Virus record (IMG/VR): IMGVR_UViG_3300035701_000113
Span: 1 to 39,022 of that record
Reading direction: 5' to 3' (one strand)
DNA length: 39,022 bases
Source of the DNA: a virus
In this document: positions 15,550 through 29,259 of the stretch, one piece after another
How the letters are laid out: each line of letters opens with the position of its first letter
Position numbering within the stretch: the stretch's first letter is position 1
The notes under the pieces: model-generated
The model's database searches: none
The model's input: the letters and a program-made list of their open reading frames with translations, nothing else
What the model was told of the DNA's origin: nothing
Program-made: the position numbers and the translations under genes

Positions 15550-15930
15550 CTATTCCCTGAAGGCCACCATGAAGTCGAGGGGCGCCTGGTATATCCCGGC
15601 GGCCGGCTCATACATGTCGCGGTCGCCGACGCAGAGGCAGCTCCCGATCTCGGTGGTCCCCATCATTCCGGAGTATCCGTCGAGTACGTCTCTCAGCTCA
15701 CTTGCGATCTCGCGGACGTCCCCGTGCTTGACCGCCCAGCACGAGATCTGGAATCGGCACTTCGTGAGGTGGCTGAATCCCTGGTGCGAATAGATCGGAA
15801 CGGTCGAGACCCTGAAGAATGTGAGCGCCGGCAGGACCGCTTTTTGCGGCAGCTTCACCGAGTAGACCCTTCCTGCGACCAGGGTCACGTGAGCTGTGAG
15901 GTATGCTCCCAGAGCCTTCTCGATTTCCAT
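15550..15930 (-). CDS. Tail completion protein (gp17/DUF3168-like)
   Basis: 126 residues from ATG 15930, which shares one base with the preceding TGA. The opening EIEKALGAYLTAHVTL and KLPQKAVLPALTFFRVSTVP followed by CRFQISCWAVKHGDVREIAS match the siphoviral family that closes the tail terminus. An in-frame extension to 16044 overlaps the neighbouring gene and lacks protein character. It follows an HK97 gp10-like gene, the normal order. Confidence 0.8.
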   Translation of the reverse strand: MEIEKALGAYLTAHVTLVAGRVYSVKLPQKAVLPALTFFRVSTVPIYSHQGFSHLTKCRFQISCWAVKHGDVREIASELRDVLDGYSGMMGTTEIGSCLCVGDRDMYEPAAGIYQAPLDFMVAFRE

Positions 15931-16361
15931 CAGAGGCTCCTCAGGGCTTCCCTGATCTCCTTCACTATCGCGTCCTTGTTCTCGTCGAGCGCCGGGCGGA
16001 GGTAGGGCCGGGCCGGCATCTGCACGGAAGTAACGCTGTGCCACTCCCCGTCTCCCGTCCGGAACACCAGGTAGGGTCCGTTCTTGGCCTCAATTATACC
16101 GCCGAACTCGTGGATGGCGGCGTATTCGAGATTCGTTCCCACGGCCACAACGACCCTCTGGGCGCTCTTCTCGACCGTCTCGTGGTGTATCGAGCGCTTC
16201 AGCGTGCCGGTTTTGTAGGGGGCCTTGTCCTTAGCGTCGTTCTCGACCAAGAGTGCGGCGGATGTCACTGCGGCCTCGAGCTTGTCCGCGTATTCGTCCG
16301 ACTTCGCCTCGACCTTCTTGAGCAGTGACTCGGCCCCCATGAGGGTTAGCCAGCTCTTCAC
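15930..16361 (-). CDS. HK97 gp10-like neck/tail component
   Basis: 143 residues. The motif DAKDKAPYKTGTLKRSIHHE followed by VGTNLEYAAIHEFGG and PARPYLRPALDENKD is diagnostic for the HK97 gp10 family that joins head and tail. The coding sequence overlaps its neighbours by four and one bases. Confident from motif and order. Confidence 0.92.
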   Translation of the reverse strand: MKSWLTLMGAESLLKKVEAKSDEYADKLEAAVTSAALLVENDAKDKAPYKTGTLKRSIHHETVEKSAQRVVVAVGTNLEYAAIHEFGGIIEAKNGPYLVFRTGDGEWHSVTSVQMPARPYLRPALDENKDAIVKEIREALRSL

Positions 16362-16723
16362 GTCACCACCTCGCAGGCCAGCCTCGTCGTTTGCCCGTGG
16401 CTGTCGTGTTCCACGAGGAGTATGTCGAGCGTGATATCGTCCACCACGGCGCGCATCTTCTCGGTGATCTCGGGATAGTGCCCGGCCAGGGTGACCCGGT
16501 GGGTCGCCGGGACGTAGGTCATGTCGGGCCTCTTGACCTCCTGCCCCCCGGCCGCTGCCATGGCGCAGGGGATGTCCTCGTGCCCCAGCCTCGCGCTCCA
16601 GGCGCTCACCTCGTCGCGGTACTCGTCAACCGTGACGGTGGCTTCCTCGATCATGCACCTGGAGGGGAAGAAGCGGTGGAGGCTCTCGAGCATCTTCGGG
16701 TGTATGAGCGTCTCCTCGCTCAT
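16358..16723 (-). CDS. Head closure/head-tail adaptor protein
   Basis: 121 residues with the head-completion pattern: EEATVTVDEYRDEVSAWSAR early, a PCAMAAAGGQEVKRPDMTYV middle, and THRVTLAGHYPEITEKMRAV followed by a short beta closing section. It lies between the gp6-like connector and the gp10-like protein. The fold family is a good match, though no catalytic motif exists to confirm it. Confidence 0.75.
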   Translation of the reverse strand: MSEETLIHPKMLESLHRFFPSRCMIEEATVTVDEYRDEVSAWSARLGHEDIPCAMAAAGGQEVKRPDMTYVPATHRVTLAGHYPEITEKMRAVVDDITLDILLVEHDSHGQTTRLACEVVT

Positions 16724-17103
16724 GGGATCCCCCTTATCGCGTCCTTGGCGATCTTCTCCCTCAGGCTGAAGTCGTCGACGGGGTTCTCCGCCCAGTCCGG
16801 CACGTCGAAGATGGTCTCGCCCTCCTCCTCCAGAGCTTGCTTCCTCAGCTCCGCCGCGTGCTCCCTCAGGGCCTTCGCCTCGGAAGGCCCATCCGTTGAC
16901 AGATCAAGGAGCTTGATCCTCTTCTGGACGAGGACCTCATTGGAGGCTATGGTGTCCAAAGCCATCGCCGCAGCGTTCAGGATGCAGCTGTTCATGGTGA
17001 CGAAGGCCTCGATCTCGTCGTCGGAGAACATCAGGTGCTCGAAGTCCTTGTCGTTGACTATGAGGCGGACCTTGCCCACGTCGGTCGTCAGGTCGTATCG
17101 CAC
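16720..17103 (-). CDS. Head-tail connector (gp6-like)
   Basis: 127 residues from a GTG start preceded by GAGGGGGG. Helical, opening with KVRLIVNDKDFEHLMFSDDE and continuing IEAFVTMNSCILNAAAMALD, the usual connector pattern of acidic helix plus Ala-rich helix. It is the first gene after the capsid block. A very stable hairpin lies in its leader. Confidence 0.75.
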   Translation of the reverse strand: MRYDLTTDVGKVRLIVNDKDFEHLMFSDDEIEAFVTMNSCILNAAAMALDTIASNEVLVQKRIKLLDLSTDGPSEAKALREHAAELRKQALEEEGETIFDVPDWAENPVDDFSLREKIAKDAIRGIP

Positions 17104-17116
17104 GGTGTCCCCCCTC

Positions 17117-17138
17117 GGAGGGGGCTCGCGCCCCCTCC
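17117..17138 (-). promoter_or_regulatory. Perfect GC hairpin in connector leader
   Basis: GGAGGGGGC pairs perfectly with GCCCCCTCC around a TCGC loop. There is no T-tract on either strand, so it is not an intrinsic terminator. The following GAGGGGGG ribosome site could pair with the C-rich arm, so a translational or mRNA-stability role is possible. Confidence 0.6.
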
Positions 17139-17152
17139 CGGGTTAGCTTCTG

Positions 17153-17431
17153 CTACTTCTTTCCGGCCGGCTTTTTGGAAGGCTTCTTGGCCGGCTGCCT
17201 GGCTAACTTCTCCTCAGACTCCGGCTCCTCGGCCTTCTCGGGCGCCAGGATCTCCTCAGTTATCTCAGGCTTGGGCTCGGGCACCTTCGGCTTGGGCGGC
17301 TTCGCGAGGATGTCCTCGGCCTCGCCCCTCCCGATGAGGGCCTTCGCCAGGGAGTCCTGGACGTCGTATCTCTTGCCCTTCTCGAGCAACTGCCCGACGG
17401 TCCAGACTTCGCTCAGCATCTTTATGTGCAT
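17153..17431 (-). CDS. Small capsid-region protein with Lys/Pro/Ala-rich tail
   Basis: 92 residues. A short globular part (LSEVWTVGQLLEKGKRYDVQ, then DSLAKALIGRG) is followed by an extended tail of PKPK, EPE and KKPSKKPAGKK. It lies between major capsid and connector genes. The globular piece resembles small proteins found after the capsid in many siphoviruses. Function unknown; the basic tail could contact DNA in the head. Confidence 0.62.
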   Translation of the reverse strand: MHIKMLSEVWTVGQLLEKGKRYDVQDSLAKALIGRGEAEDILAKPPKPKVPEPKPEITEEILAPEKAEEPESEEKLARQPAKKPSKKPAGKK

Positions 17432-17482
17432 CTTGTCCTCCTCTCCGTTGTTTCGGGTTCCCGCTGTCGGGCCTGACGCGGC

Positions 17483-18619
17483 CTACGTGTGGACCTGGGC
17501 GTAGGCGAACCTCGGGTCCATCGGCGCGCCGCCCATGCAGTGCCTTACCCGGTAGAACACGTTGTCCGACTCGAAGTCGCCCTCGAGCGCCCCGATCGGC
17601 GCGCCCCCGGCGACGCCCACCTTGTTCGAGGCCTTCATGCAGACCTCCGGGCTCTCGTGGCCCCTCAGGTAGTCGAACTCCACCGCGACGCCCTGCGAGA
17701 GGTCCGCGAAGACGTACCACGTGCCGTCGTTATTGCCCGACGTGTCGATCACCGGCAACAGCGGGTTCACGTGCAGCTGCAGTCCCATCTGCGTCAGGAT
17801 GTTGGCGGTGGGCACGGGGATTCCTCCGCCGGCGCCGACCTCCGTCCACTGCTTCAGGACCGAGGTAAGGACCGCCCTCGCGGTCATCTCGAGCATCGGC
17901 GGGACCACCACGTGCCTGCCGACTACGCTGAGGGGCTTCCCGAGGACGTCCGTCTGGGCCGCCATCAGTCCCAGCGTCGCCTCGAGGTTCGCGATCGTCA
18001 GGGCCAGGACCCCCGTGTTCGTCACGTTCTGCCCGTCGACGTCCGCTATCGGCGCGCCGAAGAGCAGCGGGTTGGGACCCGCCGCCACGGCTATCTGGTT
18101 GGTCGCGACGTATGATTCCGTGTAGAGGGCGGCGTCGGAGAACCTCGCCGGGAAGTCGCTGAAGGCCCCGAGGTCGTCGTTTATGAGCGATTCCCAGGAG
18201 ATGTCGAACTGCCTCCCCCTCTTCTTGACGTTGATGTGATAGTGGGCGTCGGACATCGGGGCCACGAGGTACTCGCCCTTCTCGGCCACCTCGGGGAGCA
18301 GGCTGTCGTTCCCCTGCACCTTGTGGAGCTCCCTCTGCCGGAAGTCCCTGCAGGAGCCGACCTTGACGTAGGCCTTCCAGTCCGGCACCACCAGCTTGTA
18401 GCGGGCCAGGAGCTCGCGGTCGAGTATCCCGCCGAACAGGTACGGGAAGTCGGTGGTGGTGATGGCCTCCCGCATCAGGTACTCCCACCTGTGCATCGGG
18501 TGTCGGTCGGTGTTCATGAGCAGGTCGAGGGCGCGGGAGGTCGCCGCCTCGTTGACCTTTATCCCTCGGACGGGGTTATATCCCTCCCATCCCTCCATCA
18601 GTTCCATAAACTCAGGCAT
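17483..18619 (-). CDS. Major capsid protein (HK97-fold candidate)
   Basis: 378 residues with AAGGAGGAAAAA before the ATG. It has the pattern of phage major capsid proteins of the large Mu/HK97-like group: ATSRALDLLMNTDRHPMHRW, a long helix with REAITTTDFPYLFGG, a central AVAAGPNPLLFGAPIADVDG and a C-terminal beta region with VEFDYLRGHESPEV. Position after the decoration protein and before connectors is as expected. A terminator-like hairpin lies just upstream. Confidence 0.82.
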   Translation of the reverse strand: MPEFMELMEGWEGYNPVRGIKVNEAATSRALDLLMNTDRHPMHRWEYLMREAITTTDFPYLFGGILDRELLARYKLVVPDWKAYVKVGSCRDFRQRELHKVQGNDSLLPEVAEKGEYLVAPMSDAHYHINVKKRGRQFDISWESLINDDLGAFSDFPARFSDAALYTESYVATNQIAVAAGPNPLLFGAPIADVDGQNVTNTGVLALTIANLEATLGLMAAQTDVLGKPLSVVGRHVVVPPMLEMTARAVLTSVLKQWTEVGAGGGIPVPTANILTQMGLQLHVNPLLPVIDTSGNNDGTWYVFADLSQGVAVEFDYLRGHESPEVCMKASNKVGVAGGAPIGALEGDFESDNVFYRVRHCMGGAPMDPRFAYAQVHT

Positions 18620-18641
18620 TTTTTCCTCCTTGTTGGGTACT

Positions 18642-18665
18642 AAAAAACCCGCCTTTCGGCGGGCC
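18642..18665 (-). terminator. Terminator upstream of major capsid gene
   Basis: The - strand shows CCCGCC, a GAAA tetraloop, then GGCGGG and TTTTTT, a textbook intrinsic terminator. It lies between the decoration and capsid genes with no room for a visible promoter after it, so capsid mRNA must arise by read-through or processing. Confidence 0.88.
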
Positions 18666-18688
18666 TTTGCCTTGCGGTACGGGCTTGT

Positions 18689-19561
18689 CTATACCTTGGT
18701 CGCGGCGACTATCGTCGTTGGCAGCGAGTAGTAGACGGTCATCCGGGTGCGCCCGGCCGTGCCGGCACCCACCGATACCACAACGCCGCTGACCACACGC
18801 TCGGTTGCCAGGTAGCGCCGCCTCACGTGCGCGCCGGCTGCCGGCACGTCCACGTCGGCACCCTGCTTGCCACCGGTGTGGCTGAAGCTGATGGACTCGC
18901 CCGCCAGCAGGTCTGTGGCCTTGAGGTTCACGGCGGCAAAGAAGCCGTCAGGGTCGGCGGCGTCGCCGACATTCATGGCGGCCGAGGTCGCGGCATCCCA
19001 GAGGGCCACGGCGTGAACGATGACGTCTGTCAAGAAGGCACCGGCAGGCACGGTTATGGAGCCGGTGTATGTCCCCGCTCCGGTCTCCGTGAATGTGACC
19101 GCCTTCGCATAGATCAGGTCATTCGTGAGTACGTCGGGGTCCCAGTGAACCTTGATCGCGACGACGGCTGTGAGGCTGGAACCGACATCTCCCAATGCGT
19201 AGCCGAAGCGTGCATGGGTCGCCTGGTTGCGGATCTTCGATATGACTGCTGTGGTCTTGTTGATGTAGAGCTCGTCTCCCGGGGCTATGGCGCTGTTGCC
19301 GCCCTCGTCCACTGCGGTGGCGGTCAGGAACCATATTCCCTCGGTGTCGATGGCTATGAGGTCGGTCGCTGCCGAGGCGCTTGTGAAGGCCACGCCGACG
19401 ATGTTCTCGCCCACGAGAACAGGGTCGCCGCCGTCAACAAAGCCGTCCGCGTGGGTCGGGTGGATGAGATAGCTCTCCTCTAGGGTCAGGTGCCTACCCT
19501 CACCTGTGCTGGAGCATTCCTCTCCAGTCGTGTGTCCGGTTGCCAAATACTGTGCTGGCAT
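18689..19561 (-). CDS. Head decoration/capsid-stabilising protein (DUF2190-like N-terminus)
   Basis: 290 residues. The N-terminal 140 show the decoration pattern: DGGDPVLVGENIVGVAFTSA and later NSAIAPGDELYINKTTAVIS. The C-terminal half is a second beta domain (TYTGSITVPAGAFLTDVIVH). GAAGGAGGG precedes the ATG. It sits directly before the major capsid, the normal site for these proteins. Confidence 0.78.
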   Translation of the reverse strand: MPAQYLATGHTTGEECSSTGEGRHLTLEESYLIHPTHADGFVDGGDPVLVGENIVGVAFTSASAATDLIAIDTEGIWFLTATAVDEGGNSAIAPGDELYINKTTAVISKIRNQATHARFGYALGDVGSSLTAVVAIKVHWDPDVLTNDLIYAKAVTFTETGAGTYTGSITVPAGAFLTDVIVHAVALWDAATSAAMNVGDAADPDGFFAAVNLKATDLLAGESISFSHTGGKQGADVDVPAAGAHVRRRYLATERVVSGVVVSVGAGTAGRTRMTVYYSLPTTIVAATKV

Positions 19562-19613
19562 TTGTCCCTCCTTCTAGTCTCTTTATTGTCAGTCTCTCGC
19601 CGGGTTGTCCTGT

Positions 19614-21440
19614 CTAGCGGCCTTGGGCCGCGATCTCGGCCATCCTCTCAGCCTCCTCATCGGACCTGCCCTCACGGATGAAGGTGGCCTTGAAGGACTC
19701 CTTGAGCTTCGCCTTGCCGCTGTCGTCTCCGCCGGCCCCCATGCCGCGGATCTCGCCCGAGCCGGTTATCTTGGCTATGTAGTCGGATTCGGACTTGATC
19801 GCCTCTTCGATGTCCTTCTCGTACTCCTCCCGGTCGAGCTTGCCCTCCTTGATTGCGGGGCTCCTGACCAGGGTCTCGACGAGCCTGGCCCTCGTGATCT
19901 CCGGGAGGTCCGAGGCGCCCACCTTCTCGACCGCGGTGTCGCGCGCCTCCCTAAGGATGGCGGACTCCTTGAGCCTCGCGTTCTCCTCGGCGAGCTCCGT
20001 CTTCTCCCTCTCGAGCCCGGTCTTGGCCTCCTCGAGCTCCTTCACTTTCTCTTCTTCCATCCGTTTCGCCTCCTCCATCTCTACCTTTCCCTTGTCGCTT
20101 TCCCTGTCTTCCTCGCGTGCCCTGTCCCGCGCCGACTCGAAGAGCTGGACGACCTGGCCGCCGGCGCCCGGAGTGGTGATATAGTCGACCGACTTGGCCG
20201 CCACGAGCTTCTCGATGATCGGGCCCTTTCTTCCCTCCGCCTCGCCGGATACCGCCTTGCCGAGCGCCCTGTGCGATACGCCTATGTGCGGGGCGAGCTC
20301 CTCTATGGCTTCCCTGTAGGGCCCGAACACCTTGGCCTTGGCGTAGACGCCGGGACCCCTGGGGCCATCCTCCCTGAACGCCCCGGTGCTGATAAGCTCG
20401 CCGGCGAGGTCGCGCAGCGAGCGCTCGGGGCGCTCCCGGTCCTCGCTCTCGGTGGGGTGGTCCCAGTACATGTGCAGGCCCGGCTTGTAGATTGACGCGT
20501 CGCGCCTGAGCATCTCCTTTGAGTAGAAGCCGCTCGATCCCCAGCCGGGCTGTATGATCTTTATCTCCGCTGTCCCGTCCTTGGCGACCGCTTGTTCTGA
20601 AAGGGGGATGACGTCTCCGCCTATCGACTCGGCCACGGGCTCGTAGACGGTCCGCGCCACTACCTCCGTCGGGTCGCCGACCGTGATCTTGCCGTTGGCA
20701 TCCTCCGAGTAGTCAAGCTGGTAGGTCTTGCCGCCGAAGTCGTAGATGAGGTAGTCGTCGTAGACGTCCCTGACCCAGGGCCCCTCGGAGGCGCTGCCGA
20801 GGCCCATCCTGTCCCTGAGGGCGAGACCTAGCTGGCGCCTGAGCTCCTCGTGGGACTCGTCGCCCGCCTCCTTATAGGTCGGCAGGTTCTTCTTGGCGAG
20901 CGCCTGCGCCTTGGCCGTCGCCTTATCCTTCGCCGCTTTGTCGAGGCTTGACTGCGGTATCCTCGCCAGGGCGTTCCTCAGGTGCGGCAGGTTGAGGCTG
21001 CCCTCGGAGTCGTAGACCGGGAAGTAGCGCAGGGAGCGCGGCACCGTCTTCCCATCCTCGTCCTTCTCGCCGCCGGGGCCTACGTAGAGGAACGCAGAAT
21101 CCGGCAGGTCGTTGATATAGGCAACGTCCCACTCTGCCTCAGTGAGCCTTGCCAAGACTGACGGAAGCGCCACCAATGTGAGGGACTCTATCGCCTCCTT
21201 GTTCATCCCCGCTTCTTTCAGCTTTGCGATTATTCCTTCCCACATGTACACGTCTGCCTCCTTAACGTTCTTGGCCGCCGCGTTGGCGACCCTTATAGCC
21301 TGCGCGTCGCAATCCTTCTCGTCCCCGCCGCCCTCGACGCACCTATCCCTGGTGCTGTTCGCTATCTTCAGCCAGGCCGCCGCCTGCTTGGTGCTCAATC
21401 CCTTTATGTGCCTCTCGACATCCCCGGCCTTCCAGGGCAT
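19614..21440 (-). CDS. ChaB domain, capsid maturation protease and scaffold in one protein
   Basis: 608 residues. Residues 1-58 form a ChaB-like domain (VERHIKGLSTKQAAAWLKIA). Residues about 60-190 are a linker rich in charged helix. About 285-430 resembles a serine-type prohead protease, with His in LHMYWDHPTESEDRERPERS and a Ser-containing IGVSHRALG segment. About 435-608 is long coiled coil (EEEKVKELEEAKTGLEREKT) as in scaffolds. In related phages such fusions cleave themselves from the scaffold after assembly. The domain borders are my estimate. Confidence 0.75.
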   Translation of the reverse strand: MPWKAGDVERHIKGLSTKQAAAWLKIANSTRDRCVEGGGDEKDCDAQAIRVANAAAKNVKEADVYMWEGIIAKLKEAGMNKEAIESLTLVALPSVLARLTEAEWDVAYINDLPDSAFLYVGPGGEKDEDGKTVPRSLRYFPVYDSEGSLNLPHLRNALARIPQSSLDKAAKDKATAKAQALAKKNLPTYKEAGDESHEELRRQLGLALRDRMGLGSASEGPWVRDVYDDYLIYDFGGKTYQLDYSEDANGKITVGDPTEVVARTVYEPVAESIGGDVIPLSEQAVAKDGTAEIKIIQPGWGSSGFYSKEMLRRDASIYKPGLHMYWDHPTESEDRERPERSLRDLAGELISTGAFREDGPRGPGVYAKAKVFGPYREAIEELAPHIGVSHRALGKAVSGEAEGRKGPIIEKLVAAKSVDYITTPGAGGQVVQLFESARDRAREEDRESDKGKVEMEEAKRMEEEKVKELEEAKTGLEREKTELAEENARLKESAILREARDTAVEKVGASDLPEITRARLVETLVRSPAIKEGKLDREEYEKDIEEAIKSESDYIAKITGSGEIRGMGAGGDDSGKAKLKESFKATFIREGRSDEEAERMAEIAAQGR

Positions 21441-22247
21441 CTACTCCCCCTCGCTTCCGACCCGCCTATAAGCCGCATAACATCGGCATCCAGGGAAACG
21501 GGGCGGCTCGTCATCACCTGACGGGAATGATTCATCAAGCGGTATCCAGTCTGCATCTTGGTTTTCTTGACATTCCTCAGTTACGAGGTCATCTTGCATG
21601 GTGTTCCAGGAGTGCTCCATCTCGAGGCCGGCGGCCACGAGCTGGTCAATGCCCTGGCGGTTGCCCTGCTCGTAGGCGTTGGCGCTCTCTGTCACCGCGA
21701 CCAGGTGGGCCCGGCTCTCGATGTGGAGCTGCGGCTTGCCGACCGCGAACTCCTCGAAGCGCCCGCTGATCTCGCGGGCCGTGCGGTTGTAGGACCAGCC
21801 CTCCTCGACGCCCCGGGTCACGAGGCGGGCGATCTCGTCGCGGGTCGTCTGGTTTATCTTCGTGACCATCTCGGCGGCGTGCTCCTCGAGCCACTGGACG
21901 GCCCGTGGGTTCTTAAGGCCCAGGGCTACGCTCGCCCCCCACTCGGCCGAGGCCGACATGCCCGCCCTCATCGCCTCGCTCGTGCCGGACTGAATGGCGG
22001 CCGTCATGTCCTCGATGGTCTCGAGCTCGACGACGCCGAGTATCTTGTCTATCTCGGAGGGCCCTATCGCTTCGGCGAAAAGGCTCTTGTATTTCTCAAT
22101 GCCCTTCTTGAAGAGGCCGTCCTGCCTGCGGAAGACCTTCTGCATCTTCTTCTCGAGGCCGGAGGCGATCTTGACCAGTATCCTCTCGCGGGTGTATTCG
22201 CTCACCGCCTCCTTGAGGTTGGTGACCGCCTCAAGAAGAGCCGGCAT
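21441..22247 (-). CDS. Minor head protein (Mu F-like)
   Basis: 268 residues. The C-terminal region has GKPQLHIESRAHLVAVTESA followed by the Mu F-like ending with ESFPSGDDEPPRFPGCRCYA, the diagnostic HxxxRxxxxARTE-to-CRC layout with local variation. The helical N-terminus fits the family. It follows the portal, overlapping it by 17 bases. Likely enters the head and joins portal and shell. Confidence 0.88.
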   Translation of the reverse strand: MPALLEAVTNLKEAVSEYTRERILVKIASGLEKKMQKVFRRQDGLFKKGIEKYKSLFAEAIGPSEIDKILGVVELETIEDMTAAIQSGTSEAMRAGMSASAEWGASVALGLKNPRAVQWLEEHAAEMVTKINQTTRDEIARLVTRGVEEGWSYNRTAREISGRFEEFAVGKPQLHIESRAHLVAVTESANAYEQGNRQGIDQLVAAGLEMEHSWNTMQDDLVTEECQENQDADWIPLDESFPSGDDEPPRFPGCRCYAAYRRVGSEGE

Positions 22248-23805
22248 CCCTCACCGCCTCCTGGAGCTCCTTGACCGCGGCCACGAGTCTGGTCTCCGCC
22301 ACCGTCTCGCCCGCCGGGTAGAGCTGTTCGATCATCGCATCGATGTCCTCCTCGCCCAGGGCGGTCAGGAGCATCCGCGTGATCGTCGGCATGTCGAGCG
22401 TGCCGGCCGGAACCTGGCCCGAGAGAGTCGCTGCCTTGACCACCGCATCCACCGCCGAGGCCACGTCGTGCTCGAGGATCGGCGGGAAGGTTATCTTGAC
22501 AGAGGGGTCGACGCCTGTCGCAAACTCGAGATGCGGGGTGCCGTCCTCCTCCTCCGTGACGCTGCCTACTAACTTCTTTGCCTCGACCGCGCGCGCCAGG
22601 ACATAGCCGATTATGTCCCTGTGTATGTCGGCCCAGAGGGTCTGCCTCGAGACCATCATGAGCTCCGTCGGCCTGTCGAGGCTTTTCGCCGTGGCGAGCG
22701 TCCCGACCGAGGTGTCGCCGAAGAACGTCTCGGGCAGTCCTGTCGCGGCGGCCACCATGAGCAGCAGCCTCCTGCCGTCGTCGGCGGACGTCGTCGCCCC
22801 GGCTGTCCTAATCGGGTCCATCCTGATGCTGCCCGGCTCGATGAGCGTCGACGCGGTGAGCGGCGGCGGGTTCGTCTCCACGCCCGTTGGTAGCGTGCTC
22901 TCGAACTTCCTCTTCACGGCTTCGACTGCGGCCGCGCTTCCCGTCCCGCCCCTGATGCCCGAGACCCGCCAGGCGAACCTGGCGTACGCCTGGACGATGG
23001 TCGACCAGTTTTCGAGGAAGTCCTTGTATGCCCTCGCCCAGTCGATCGCCGCGTAGACCTCGGAGATCCCGAAGCTCATGCGGCCAAGTCCGCCGACCCT
23101 CACGTGGTAGACGGGGCTGTCCCACTCGATGTTCTTGTTGCCTATCGTCTTCGGCCTCTCGGACGACTTCGGCCTGTACCGCCAGTCGGGGTAGTAGGCG
23201 ACCTGCGGCGTCGTGCTGCTCATGCCCGTCTCGAGCTTGAGTTCCGACTTGCCCCACGATCGCTTGTAGTACCAGGGGTCCTTCGAGTCCTCCGGGTTCT
23301 TGATTATCTCCAAGACCTCGTCGACGGGGATTGTGCGGATGCGGACGCGCCCCGTCTCCTTGTTGGTGAAGAAGCAGAAGAAGATGTTGCCCTCGACCTG
23401 GAGGTCCTGCTCTTTGTACATCCTCGCCTGGTGGATTGTCAGCTCGGCCTTGTTCTTCGCGTCGTCGAGGAAGCCCTGGACCACCTCGTTAATCGCCTCG
23501 TCCTTCGCGCTGATGTTCATCCCCTGCCCGAAGACGTAGTAGACCTGGGCGTTGACCCCGCGCTGTATGAGGGGGTTCTTGAGGTAGGCGATGCGCGCGA
23601 GCTGGCATATCCTGGTCAGACCCTCGCGGGAGAACTCCTGCTCCGTCTCGAAGCCGAGACGCAACCATCCCTGATCCTCCAAAGCCAACTCTAAATCCGT
23701 GAGGCGTTCAGTGAGACTGACTAGATTGCCTTGCTCGGTCTCCAAGATCTCATTCAGTTCCACGTTGAGCTGTTCTGTCTCAGACAATCTTTGCCGAAGG
23801 CTCAT
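22231..23805 (-). CDS. Portal protein
   Basis: 524 residues from ATG 23805, chosen for the AGAGGAGG site just upstream; an extension to 23841 is possible. Helical N-terminus ([16 protein letters not shown]), then the portal core: [40 protein letters not shown] and the late stem region [20 protein letters not shown]. It forms the dodecameric DNA gate. It would follow the large terminase directly but for an inserted HNH gene. Confidence 0.93.
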
Positions 23806-24469
23806 GCTCCTCCTCTTGCTGAATGAAATCTCCATAGACATGCAGGATTTCCTTGGCCCATTTCACCAAGTCTTCCACTCGCTGTCCTGATCTCTGAGGG
23901 GTAACCCATAATTCAAGATTCTCTGGACGATTGTCTTGGCGGTCACCATTCTTGTGATGTACGCTCTCGTTTGCCATGAGTGGTCGCCCGATCATCTCAG
24001 ACATCACCAGCCGATGTTCATAGACATAACCCTTTGAGTTGGCATCGATGTGGCGTGGCAGATGGATACGTTTATAACCCTGGGATATTGATTCTTTCGG
24101 AGCTTTCTTTCGTAATGGCTGGATGTTCGCATCGCCGTGTTTTCGCCAACGCTTCCAATGCTTGTGACAATAACCACGAGCAATCTGTTTCTGAGTGCAT
24201 CCTTTTATGGTGCAAGATTGTTGATTGGCATGTATCTTCTCGGGCAAATCAAGGGAACCGTGTACTTTCAACCGCCGGAGATGTTTGTGGCAAAGGCCGT
24301 GCGCTGCAGACTTAGTTGAGCAGTCGGCAACAGTACATTCTTCCGGGTTTGGTCTTCGCCCCGTCCTTCCTAGAGGATCACCATTGCGACGCCAGAAATC
24401 ATAATGCTGACTACAATATCCTCTAGCTATAGATTCGTTTGGACAATTGCGAATCGCGCAGAGTGACAT
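23780..24469 (-). CDS. HNH homing-type endonuclease with three zinc knuckles
   Basis: 229 residues. Three copies of C-x4-C-x9-C-x2-H occur before about residue 105 ([18 protein letters not shown] and IARGYCHKH). An HNH nuclease domain follows: [17 protein letters not shown] and [20 protein letters not shown], with the His-His and Asn-rich motif intact. It lies between large terminase and portal and overlaps the portal start by 26 bases. Its DNA is more AT-rich than the flanks, as expected for an invasive gene. Free-standing homing endonuclease is the best call. Confidence 0.9.
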
Positions 24470-26553: not shown

Positions 26554-26886
26554 TCAAGAGGCCGCTTCTTGTTTTTTTTGTTGCGGTGTTTTCCCAATCG
26601 AAACCCCTAACAACTTTTCTCTCAAGTGATGATAGAGATGCGCCTTGGCATGGCACGTCTCGCAAAGCGTCATCCCATTCCATAATTTGTATTTGAGTTC
26701 AGGATACTTCTCTTTCGGATAGACGTGATGAGCCTCAAGTTCTCCGCCTTTAGCCCCACATGATTGACAACGAAAGCAGTCTCTTTGGTAAACCATCTCC
26801 CGCCATATGTCAGATTTGCCTCCGCCTGACTTGCCGACATATTTCTCGTTTGTTCTACCCAATCGTGATCCCCCTCGCCATCTCAA
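26554..26886 (-). CDS. HNH endonuclease, last early gene
   Basis: 110 residues. The core is classic: RDCFRCQSCGAKGGELEAHH (two CxxC halves and a His pair), then KLWNGMTLCETCHAKAH with the second zinc pair. ATG 26886 gives the full length; a TTG near 26865 with GAGGGGG upstream is a possible alternative. It overlaps the upstream gene by 32 bases and is followed by the early terminator. Confidence 0.87.
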   Translation of the reverse strand: MRWRGGSRLGRTNEKYVGKSGGGKSDIWREMVYQRDCFRCQSCGAKGGELEAHHVYPKEKYPELKYKLWNGMTLCETCHAKAHLYHHLREKLLGVSIGKTPQQKKQEAAS

Positions 26887-27091
26887 GCCAGTACTCGTAC
26901 TCCGCGGACAGCTTACCGATTTTCCTGTCGAGCTCTTGCATCTTCTCGTGCGCCCTCGTGTCGTTTATCAGTATGCCGGTCCCGCCACGCTTGCCCTGCC
27001 TGAACGCCATGAACGCCTGTCGGTCGGCGGCGCCACGGTAGGCCAGGTACTTGATCGTCGCGTATGTTGCGTTCAGCCTCTCTATCGGCAA
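26855..27091 (-). CDS. Small conserved phage protein, start uncertain
   Basis: The convincing part is residues PIERLNATYATIKYLAYRGA onward to MQELDRKIGKLSAEYEYWLE. I place the start at TTG 27091, which follows GAGG and clears most of the neighbouring zinc-finger gene; a GTG at 27184 would give 109 residues but with a Gly/Arg-rich, shadow-like N-terminus. Ends in a coiled coil. Function unknown. Confidence 0.55.
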   Translation of the reverse strand: MPIERLNATYATIKYLAYRGAADRQAFMAFRQGKRGGTGILINDTRAHEKMQELDRKIGKLSAEYEYWLEMARGITIG

Positions 27092-27357
27092 AGCGACCTC
27101 ATCCTCGTAGCCACGTCCAGGAGTACCCTTTCCGCGTCCGGCCCCAGCGCGCGGAGCCTTCTCGCCGGCTGCTCCAGAAGCCACTCGACCTCCCTCTTTA
27201 TGCCATAAGCCACGTGCTCCACCAACGTCTTCTCCGGCCGCGAGTGGACCGCCTTCTGCCTCCTTATAAGATTAGCGTAGTCCCTCCGGCAGTCGTCGTG
27301 CCAGGGCGACCGCTTAGTGCTGTTCAGATCGCATCCGCAAAGGACGCAGTGTCTCAC
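27082..27357 (-). CDS. Zinc-finger protein downstream of the pentamer array
   Basis: 91 residues from GTG 27357 with GAGGTAG upstream. HCVLCGCDLN followed by SPWHDDCRRDY gives a likely zinc site (C-x2-C near the start, then H-x3-C). A long basic helical part follows (LIRRQKAVHSRPEKTLVEHV ... LLEQPARRLRAL). This is the first gene transcribed after the pentamer array, so its leader contains the array. A nucleic-acid-binding role is plausible but unproven. Confidence 0.65.
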   Translation of the reverse strand: MRHCVLCGCDLNSTKRSPWHDDCRRDYANLIRRQKAVHSRPEKTLVEHVAYGIKREVEWLLEQPARRLRALGPDAERVLLDVATRMRSLCR

Positions 27358-27386
27358 ATTAACTACCTCGTCGCTTGAAGTCTCTT

Positions 27387-27601
27387 AAGCCTTACCTTAC
27401 CTCGCCTGACATCACCAAACCCGGCCACATCCCACCCAAACTCACCCGACATCACCCGAACTTGCCCCACCATGCCTCTCCTCAACCGACCGCATCGGAC
27501 CCCACCTGGCCTAACCTGACCCCACCATGCCAAACCTTACCTTACATCGCCGCGCCCAGCCTGACGTCACCGGACCCATCCTCACCTAACACCAACTGAC
27601 A
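27387..27601 (-). repeat. Pentamer array: 43 in-phase units of GGYNN
   Basis: Read on the + strand in steps of five from base 27387, all 43 consecutive units fit NNRCC. Position 3 is A in 31, G in 10 and T in 2 units. Positions 4-5 are CC in 31 units, and each of the other 12 keeps C at one of the two positions. Positions 1-2 vary freely. The phase is never broken over 215 bp. On the transcribed (-) strand this is GGTNN repeated, so GG pairs recur every 5 nt. The array begins inside the last five codons of the 27586-28125 gene and ends about 30 bases before the next start. It is not CRISPR-like: there are no spacers. Confidence 0.95.
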
Positions 27602-28125
27602 ACCTTGAACCTGCCGAACTTCGGGCGGTAATCGCCGATACCAACGAAACTACCGGCTTGGTCTAAGACATCACGGACCACGCTCTTGTCAAGCTGCTCA
27701 TCAAGAACCTCGATCTCAAATGAAAGCCTCCACTTGTCCAAGCGAGGCCTGTATCTGAGAACCGCGTTCCGCTGGACGACGGCGCGCCTCTCATCGATCT
27801 CGTATTCGTTGATTTCGTGTGGAATCATAAATGGCTTTACGAAGACGGCGGCCTTGAACAGGTCCTTGTACGTCTTGTTCCTCTTGCCTGGTATGGTGAA
27901 ATTAGTGGCCGCCTTCACCATCGCAGACTCGATATGCTCCGCCGGCTGGACGAGATTGCCGCCCTCGTCCCTATACGCCGCCTTCTCGCCCTCCGCCTTC
28001 CAGTCGATGGTGCCGGTTTTTTTCCGGCCTTTGGATTCCGGCTCATCGGCGTTGAAATAGCGGTGCATCAACAGCGGCGCCGTCCCCTCGATAGTCACCT
28101 TAATCATGTTCCCGTTCCCTTTCAT
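27586..28125 (-). CDS. Conserved phage protein, possible Cas7/RAMP-like fold, function unknown
   Basis: 179 residues, ATG overlapping the preceding stop. The opening NMIKVTIEGTAPLLMHRYF, a Lys/Arg-rich loop, and the ending FVGIGDYRPKFGRFKVVSW (Gly-rich loop with Arg/Phe) resemble RAMP/Cas7-type RNA-binding proteins, but this is a weak visual likeness, not a family assignment. The stop codon lies inside the start of the pentamer array, so gene and array are physically linked. Sits in the early operon with small zinc proteins. Confidence 0.6.
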   Translation of the reverse strand: MKGNGNMIKVTIEGTAPLLMHRYFNADEPESKGRKKTGTIDWKAEGEKAAYRDEGGNLVQPAEHIESAMVKAATNFTIPGKRNKTYKDLFKAAVFVKPFMIPHEINEYEIDERRAVVQRNAVLRYRPRLDKWRLSFEIEVLDEQLDKSVVRDVLDQAGSFVGIGDYRPKFGRFKVVSWC

Positions 28126-28498: not shown

Positions 28499-28668
28499 TA
28501 TTCATTCCTTGCCACTATGCACTCAGGACAATTTATAGGTTTCTTGGTCCGCTTCCAGACCGCGAAGGGCACCAGTTTCTTCCGCTTGCAGCTGACCTCG
28601 TATCCGCCCCTCGCCTTGACCCTGTGGCCGTGGTGAACCGGGCCGCCGTCACGCCTCTGGAGTCTCAC
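28498..28668 (-). CDS. Small basic Cys-containing protein
   Basis: 56 residues from GTG 28668. Basic throughout (VKARGGYEVSCKRKKL), ending with TKKPINCPECIVARNE, which has a CPEC zinc-type pair that may pair with the earlier single Cys. The stop shares a base with the next ATG (TAATG). It fills an otherwise empty slot exactly, which supports it. Confidence 0.6.
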   Translation of the reverse strand: MRLQRRDGGPVHHGHRVKARGGYEVSCKRKKLVPFAVWKRTKKPINCPECIVARNE

Positions 28669-28672
28669 TCAC

Positions 28673-28864
28673 TCATCTCCCGATTCTCTCGGCCTGCTCA
28701 AGCATTTTGTTTTCTACAACCTCATACAGGTCGCCCGGCTCAAGGAACACCTTGACCTCTATCTGCACAACCAACGCCTTGTGGCTAAATGACTTTTCAC
28801 CGATGCCGTTTGCGTAAATGTCATAGTCCTTTGTGATTCTGAAATCCTCCAATATGGACTTCAC
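28673..28864 (-). CDS. Small alpha/beta protein of unknown function
   Basis: 63 residues: LEDFRITKDYDIYANGIGEK, then a beta stretch ALVVQIEVKVFLEPGDLYEV and a terminal helix NKMLEQAERIGR. Its ATG overlaps the preceding stop by four bases. No family recognised. Operon overlap on the upstream side is the main support. Confidence 0.6.
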   Translation of the reverse strand: MKSILEDFRITKDYDIYANGIGEKSFSHKALVVQIEVKVFLEPGDLYEVVENKMLEQAERIGR

Positions 28865-29259
28865 TGCTCATTCACCACCTTGCTCTTGCCATAGAGAGCG
28901 CATCGTTCATACAACTCGCATGGCTTATCGTCATAGCGTGTTAGGCTGTTTTCTTTCTTGGAGCAACTGGGCCGAGAGTCAGTGCGAATATAACCTCCTG
29001 ATCCGTCGGGCCATGCCGTTTTGCTGCCGATGTAGAAATTGCAAAGTCCACACTTTTCTCCGGATTCGTCGTCCGGTATGCCCAGGGAGTTCAGGTAGCA
29101 GTCGGCGCAGATACCGTACTTGCCGGGCTTGTGCCTCTTGAGCTGCCATTCGGGAAGGTCAACCAAAACGCACCAGCTCGCCAGTACCCCGCCACCGAAG
29201 AGCTTGGGGTCGAGTCCCGTGTCGTAATCCATCTCGTCGCCACATACGCTGCACTTCAT
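28861..29259 (-). CDS. Cys-rich zinc-binding protein
   Basis: 132 residues with at least nine Cys. It opens KCSVCGDEMDYDTGLDPK (CxxC), continues GICADCYLNSLG and KCGLCNFYIG (more CxxC pairs), then RPSCSKKEN and KPCELYERCALYG. Enough ligands for two or three zinc sites. Translational coupling (ATGA) with the upstream gene. Function unknown. Confidence 0.65.
   Translation of the reverse strand: MKCSVCGDEMDYDTGLDPKLFGGGVLASWCVLVDLPEWQLKRHKPGKYGICADCYLNSLGIPDDESGEKCGLCNFYIGSKTAWPDGSGGYIRTDSRPSCSKKENSLTRYDDKPCELYERCALYGKSKVVNEQ

Follow-up and report, generated by a model that had tools for sequence, protein, structure and literature searches.

The window, by which we mean the whole stretch of 39,022 nucleotides analysed here (IMG/VR record IMGVR_UViG_3300035701_000113), is the 39-kb contig of a tailed virus carrying genes for a terminase, portal, capsid and SbcC-like ATPase, together with a tape measure, a serine recombinase and a RecB-like nuclease that were assigned by reading the translations. 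Seven proteins of the head module (15930-23841; portal, capsid and small neighbours) are 36-42% identical to those of Methanoculleus virus L4768/Blf4, a likeness hinting at a host that may be archaeal or of mixed lineage; Methanoculleus virus L4768 gave no Vipr match. The locus considered here comprises the following features:

27586-28125, minus strand: vipr gene encoding a predicted RAMP (Cas7-like) of 179 aa, phrog_4652, with the G-loop motif GIGDYRPKFGRF (AlphaFold, Foldseek, tblastn)
27387-27601, minus strand: array of 43 GGYNN pentamers in a single phase, a guide array of vrRNA type (phase-5 information and unit list)
27358-27386, minus strand: 29-nt stretch from the array end to the next gene, a candidate 3' tail, weakly folded
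27082-27357, minus strand: 91-aa ORF after the array, with a GTG start and a Cys/His-rich N-terminus, a candidate accessory gene by position only
26554-26886, minus strand: HNH endonuclease gene (Pfam HNH, E 1.2e-8)

Read on the minus strand from 27601 down to 27387, the array consists of exactly 43 pentamers of the form GGYNN in a single phase. G occupies position 1 in 37 units and position 2 in 37, no unit lacks both Gs and 12 of the 43 lack one, position 3 is a pyrimidine in 41, and the unit list shows positions 4 and 5 to be free, all of which agrees with the original prediction. The relaxed units are of the kinds TGY, GTY and GAY, which also occur in loci L252, L253, L256 and L118. Phase-5 information amounts to 123.4 bits, against 9.2 +- 3.8 (maximum 30.9) in 5,000 first-order Markov shuffles, and the array gives the top 5-nt phase signal of the window, with 75 bits per 120 nt vs 23.8 at the next unrelated site. 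Lag-5 identity within the array is only 0.50, and the units therefore truly differ; the earlier proposal that the spacing itself is selected, and that slippage did not produce the array, is borne out. At phase 10 the score is higher, at 134.7 bits, roughly as expected from the added parameters; period 10 was rejected for this reason, and no 10-nt super-period is claimed.

The first three units (27587-27601) overlap the 3' end of the upstream vipr gene, whose last codons are GTT GTC AGT TGG TGT TAG (stop codon 27588-27586), and therefore about 40 units are purely intergenic, leaving 29 nt up to the start of the following gene at 27357. An open frame on the plus strand (27375-27599) does not count as evidence of a gene, and a reading of the array as a coding repeat was likewise tried and rejected. 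A search of the array for internal duplication gave no convincing offset, the promoter and terminator scan found neither by the array, and Rfam, including a permissive search, returned no match for the array region.

The vipr gene lies directly 5' of the array and on the same strand. The AlphaFold model of its 179-aa product has a mean pLDDT of 89.6, and the top Foldseek matches in the PDB are all RAMP subunits, namely Csm3 and type VII Cas7, with E about 1e-6. Six residues of the G-rich motif are invariant (G158, G162, D165, R167, P168 and G171), and by tblastn the protein matches Escherichia phage SUSP1 (phiSUSP1 28501-29055) with E 3e-10 and 29.5% over residues 7-175. In size, predicted fold and G-rich motif the protein agrees with Vipr, a single RAMP of about 20 kDa with an RRM core and a G-loop. 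The window protein clusters in the Vipr tree with L121, its nearest relative, and with L249-L256 and L073, apart from SUSP1 and also apart from a clade holding array strips of 51, 140 and 175 units. Vipr relatives also occur among the laboratory phages of the phage collection, with 28 records from Mycobacterium phages and 8 from Gordonia phages.

A scan of viral contigs for the array alone, with eight consecutive RCCNN as the pattern, returned more than 120 loci, in which lag-5 identity ranges from 0.3 to 0.8 and no array is perfect; bacterial and archaeal genomes, scanned in a similar way, yielded mainly perfect repeats or 15-nt coding repeats. Taken together, 6,436 units give the profile G (95%), G (93%) and Y (96%) followed by two nearly free positions. 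Most of the viral loci in which gene direction is clear carry GGY on the sense strand of the adjacent genes. A single-sequence tblastn search with the 179-aa Vipr gave matches in 60-70 array loci, and a Vipr profile matched 88 of 120 viral array loci vs 4 of 120 chromosomal loci; all four of the latter have degenerate arrays, and none of the 73 chromosomal loci with regular repeats matches. Degenerate GGYNN arrays with Vipr homologues were noted in L156, L170, L185 and L195, on Aureimonas, Fibrobacteres, Patescibacteria and Selenomonadales contigs that are perhaps prophages. Another group of viral loci (L009, L019, L064, L094 and 28 others) has GGYNN arrays with no detectable Vipr within the fetched stretch, and these could be truncated contigs, loci with more divergent RAMPs, or stand-alone guide arrays.

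Because the profile was built partly from proteins first found through array linkage, the non-circular test of this association is a protein-only search. It found 33 viral Vipr loci, and in 32 of them, some near-identical so that independent cases are fewer, arrays lie within 1.5 kb of the gene and all on its sense strand; no array was found beyond that distance. In the lone exception, L279, the contig ends 507 bp after vipr, and its near twin L278 has an array at 512 bp. Some Vipr loci hold several separate arrays, part of them upstream of the gene. The original prediction was probably right in placing GGYNN on the transcribed strand. It had also named relatives with the same gene and no array as the observation that would count against the element; we looked for such relatives, and the array was present at all but the one truncated locus.

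A system with these components has been described in a 2026 preprint under the name VIPR, Viral Interference Programmable Repeat, with Escherichia phage SUSP1 as an example (PMC13142463, doi 10.64898/2026.04.26.720920). Its Vipr protein is a RAMP of about 20 kDa with an RRM core and a G-loop, the vrRNAs of characterised clades have 9-16 GGY/NN units and a conserved structured 3' tail, seven types are distinguished, the loci include a Vap accessory gene, and targets lie in competing phages (PMC13142463). Vipr grips GGY and leaves NN to pair with DNA, passing over one base of the target, and the effect is repression of transcription (PMC13142463). With SUSP1 as a positive control, our array finder returned one upstream and three downstream arrays, and so recovered the four published arrays in the same layout (PMC13142463).

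We are highly confident that the window locus is a phage-borne VIPR system and that the array is its guide-RNA part. The array, its phase, its strand and its adjacency to a predicted RAMP homologous to SUSP1 Vipr are established here. VIPR is a kind already described, and this locus is a further member of it with an atypical array length; the original statement that no named element resembles the array is accordingly out of date, the element being the vrRNA of VIPR systems (PMC13142463). The locus shares with SUSP1 VIPR a Vipr of predicted RAMP fold, a tandem GGY/NN array on the sense strand beside the gene, hypervariable NN and carriage by a phage. It differs in that its Vipr occupies a separate tree branch, in that one G is absent in 28% of units, and in having one unbroken array of about 40 units where the SUSP1 type has separate vrRNAs of 9-16 units with tails.

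The likeness to the RAMPs of class 1 CRISPR systems (Csm3/Cas7, types III and VII) extends to the predicted fold and the glycine-rich loop, and Vipr has in common with them a periodic protein contact along the guide RNA. Sequence identity between the window Vipr and Csm3/Cas7 is only 9-16%, however, the period is 5 and not 6, and the guide is noncontiguous. Tandem-repeat and Rfam scans of the window found no CRISPR repeat-spacer array, and family scans of the ten neighbouring genes and of other genes gave no cas family; with neither found, we do not assign the locus to class 1 CRISPR-Cas.

Other explanations of a pentamer array deserve consideration. A degenerate microsatellite, in which a GGTNN slippage array has decayed by point mutation, would fit a tandem, intergenic array of short units, and perfect pentamer microsatellites are present in bacterial chromosomes. 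Such decay would nevertheless affect all five positions, whereas about 95% of units retain GGY and NN comes close to random across the pooled 6,436 units; the viral loci contain no perfect arrays, the near-identical units of a microsatellite are not seen at the lag-5 identity of the window array, and the array is tightly linked to the RAMP gene and its strand, so that we give this explanation virtually no credence. The G-rich transcript with GG every five bases, and a strong skew at 27001-28000, might instead be viewed as an RNA or DNA G-quadruplex (two-layer, with 3-nt loops) or R-loop element acting as a control site of replication or transcription. We consider the chance of this vanishingly small, as a G-quadruplex needs neither a pyrimidine after GG nor an exact 5-nt step across 43 units, a dozen units have a single G only, and the neighbouring RAMP gene is not predicted by it. 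The original prediction had offered stacked two-layer G-quadruplexes and an R-loop-prone origin beside a ladder for a protein with a 5-nt footprint; the former two are unsupported, leaving the conserved pyrimidine, the adjacent RAMP gene and the strand rule unexplained, and it is the ladder that comes close to the VIPR mechanism.

The sites of TRAP, the trp RNA-binding attenuation protein, also consist of RNA triplets (G/UAG) with 2-nt spacers and a 5-nt period, a geometry shared with the window array; they number about 11 units, the protein fold differs from that of a RAMP, and they have no hypervariable guide role. A TRAP-like autoregulatory array, in which the RAMP would bind its own mRNA and would not be guided to DNA, is consistent with this triplet-and-spacer geometry and with an array that shares the strand of vipr and starts at its stop codon. 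It leaves unexplained why NN is hypervariable yet codon-like and why a locus can have several separate arrays, some of them upstream of the gene, and the SUSP1 homologue of Vipr is reported to target DNA (PMC13142463); we therefore regard autoregulation as very unlikely.

As a VIPR system, the locus would operate as follows. The 179-aa gene would give Vipr, and its transcript would run on through the downstream array, yielding GGYNN RNA. Each subunit of Vipr would grip one GGY triplet and present two variable bases, and the resulting RNP would recognise double-stranded DNA matching NNxNNxNNx, with two bases read and one skipped, mostly in codon register such that the wobble base is the one skipped. 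The outcome would be the repression or blocking of competing mobile elements. RNA binding, DNA targeting and interference by the window system are what we infer from the published SUSP1 work.

The variable bases themselves bear on this code. Over 5,917 units, NN usage tracks positions 1-2 of sense codons (r 0.57 across the 16 dinucleotides, p 0.02) and shows no correlation with the other five codon phases, and a mixture fit gives weights of 0.74 to sense-12, 0.23 to antisense-12 and 0 to other phases. A likeness to codon positions 1-2 is expected if skipped bases fall on wobble positions, and the family-wide statistics appear consistent with a 1-nt skip rule; part of the signal could come from the protein favouring a purine at N1. 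Exact 9-unit probes of viral contigs (n=5), which miss diverged targets and so carry little weight in either direction, matched 1, 0, 3, 1 and 0 loci, and these matches stop at or near the seed, with 38-40 of 86 positions agreeing over the full array, as by chance. The 43-aa peptide decoded from the array in the sense reading gave nothing significant against phages (best E 0.9). In a skip-rule search of 2.2 Mb of fetched loci with the window array (skips 0-4) nothing stood out, and when 468 unique arrays were used on the same loci (skips 0, 1, 2 and 4) the top matches came from the low-complexity array of L044 and the rest were at chance level. These searches found no target for the window array.

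The length of the array sets the locus apart from most others. Among 484 arrays, a count that leaves out those of fewer than 9 units, 83% fall in the range of 9-16 units and just six reach 40, and the longest arrays of the window's tree neighbours (L121, L249-L256 and L073) have 11-20. The window array has no phase break and is longer than one published vrRNA. In L121 there are two arrays, each followed by GGGATTATTTTCC, and no such interruption occurs in the window array. Beside the vipr genes of one clade, GGYNN strips run unbroken for 140 units (L029:6310-7012) and 175 units (L077:8058-8936); these two, and a strip of 51 units, have a separate origin, in a Vipr clade other than that of the window. 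Tentatively, and with somewhat less than even confidence, we view the intergenic array of the window as one very long guide (for a target of about 120 bp) or as a continuous strip yielding overlapping guides, and not as discrete vrRNAs of 9-16 units. Published architectures include staggered arrays with overlapping vrRNAs (PMC13142463), and this layout may be the window architecture.

Related loci have short hairpin-like tails right after their arrays. The 29-nt candidate tail had no Rfam match, and no convincing tail was found within or after the window array. The 91-aa ORF matched no family above the cut-off and has no homologue in related loci, and no gene near the array stood out as a convincing Vap accessory gene. 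The HNH gene lies 500 bp past the array and offers a weak lead as an accessory nuclease; it may be ordinary phage cargo. HNH frames related to it (E about 1e-3) were also noted between GGYNN arrays in two near relatives, L252:3109-3285 and L254:4858-5046.

VIPR systems, RNA-guided and only recently described, may be older than CRISPR. To this family the locus adds a separate Vipr branch and a guide array nearly three times as long as any published, and it makes the cutting and reading of long arrays directly testable. The family-wide NN statistics, for their part, lend sequence-only support to a wobble-skip code.
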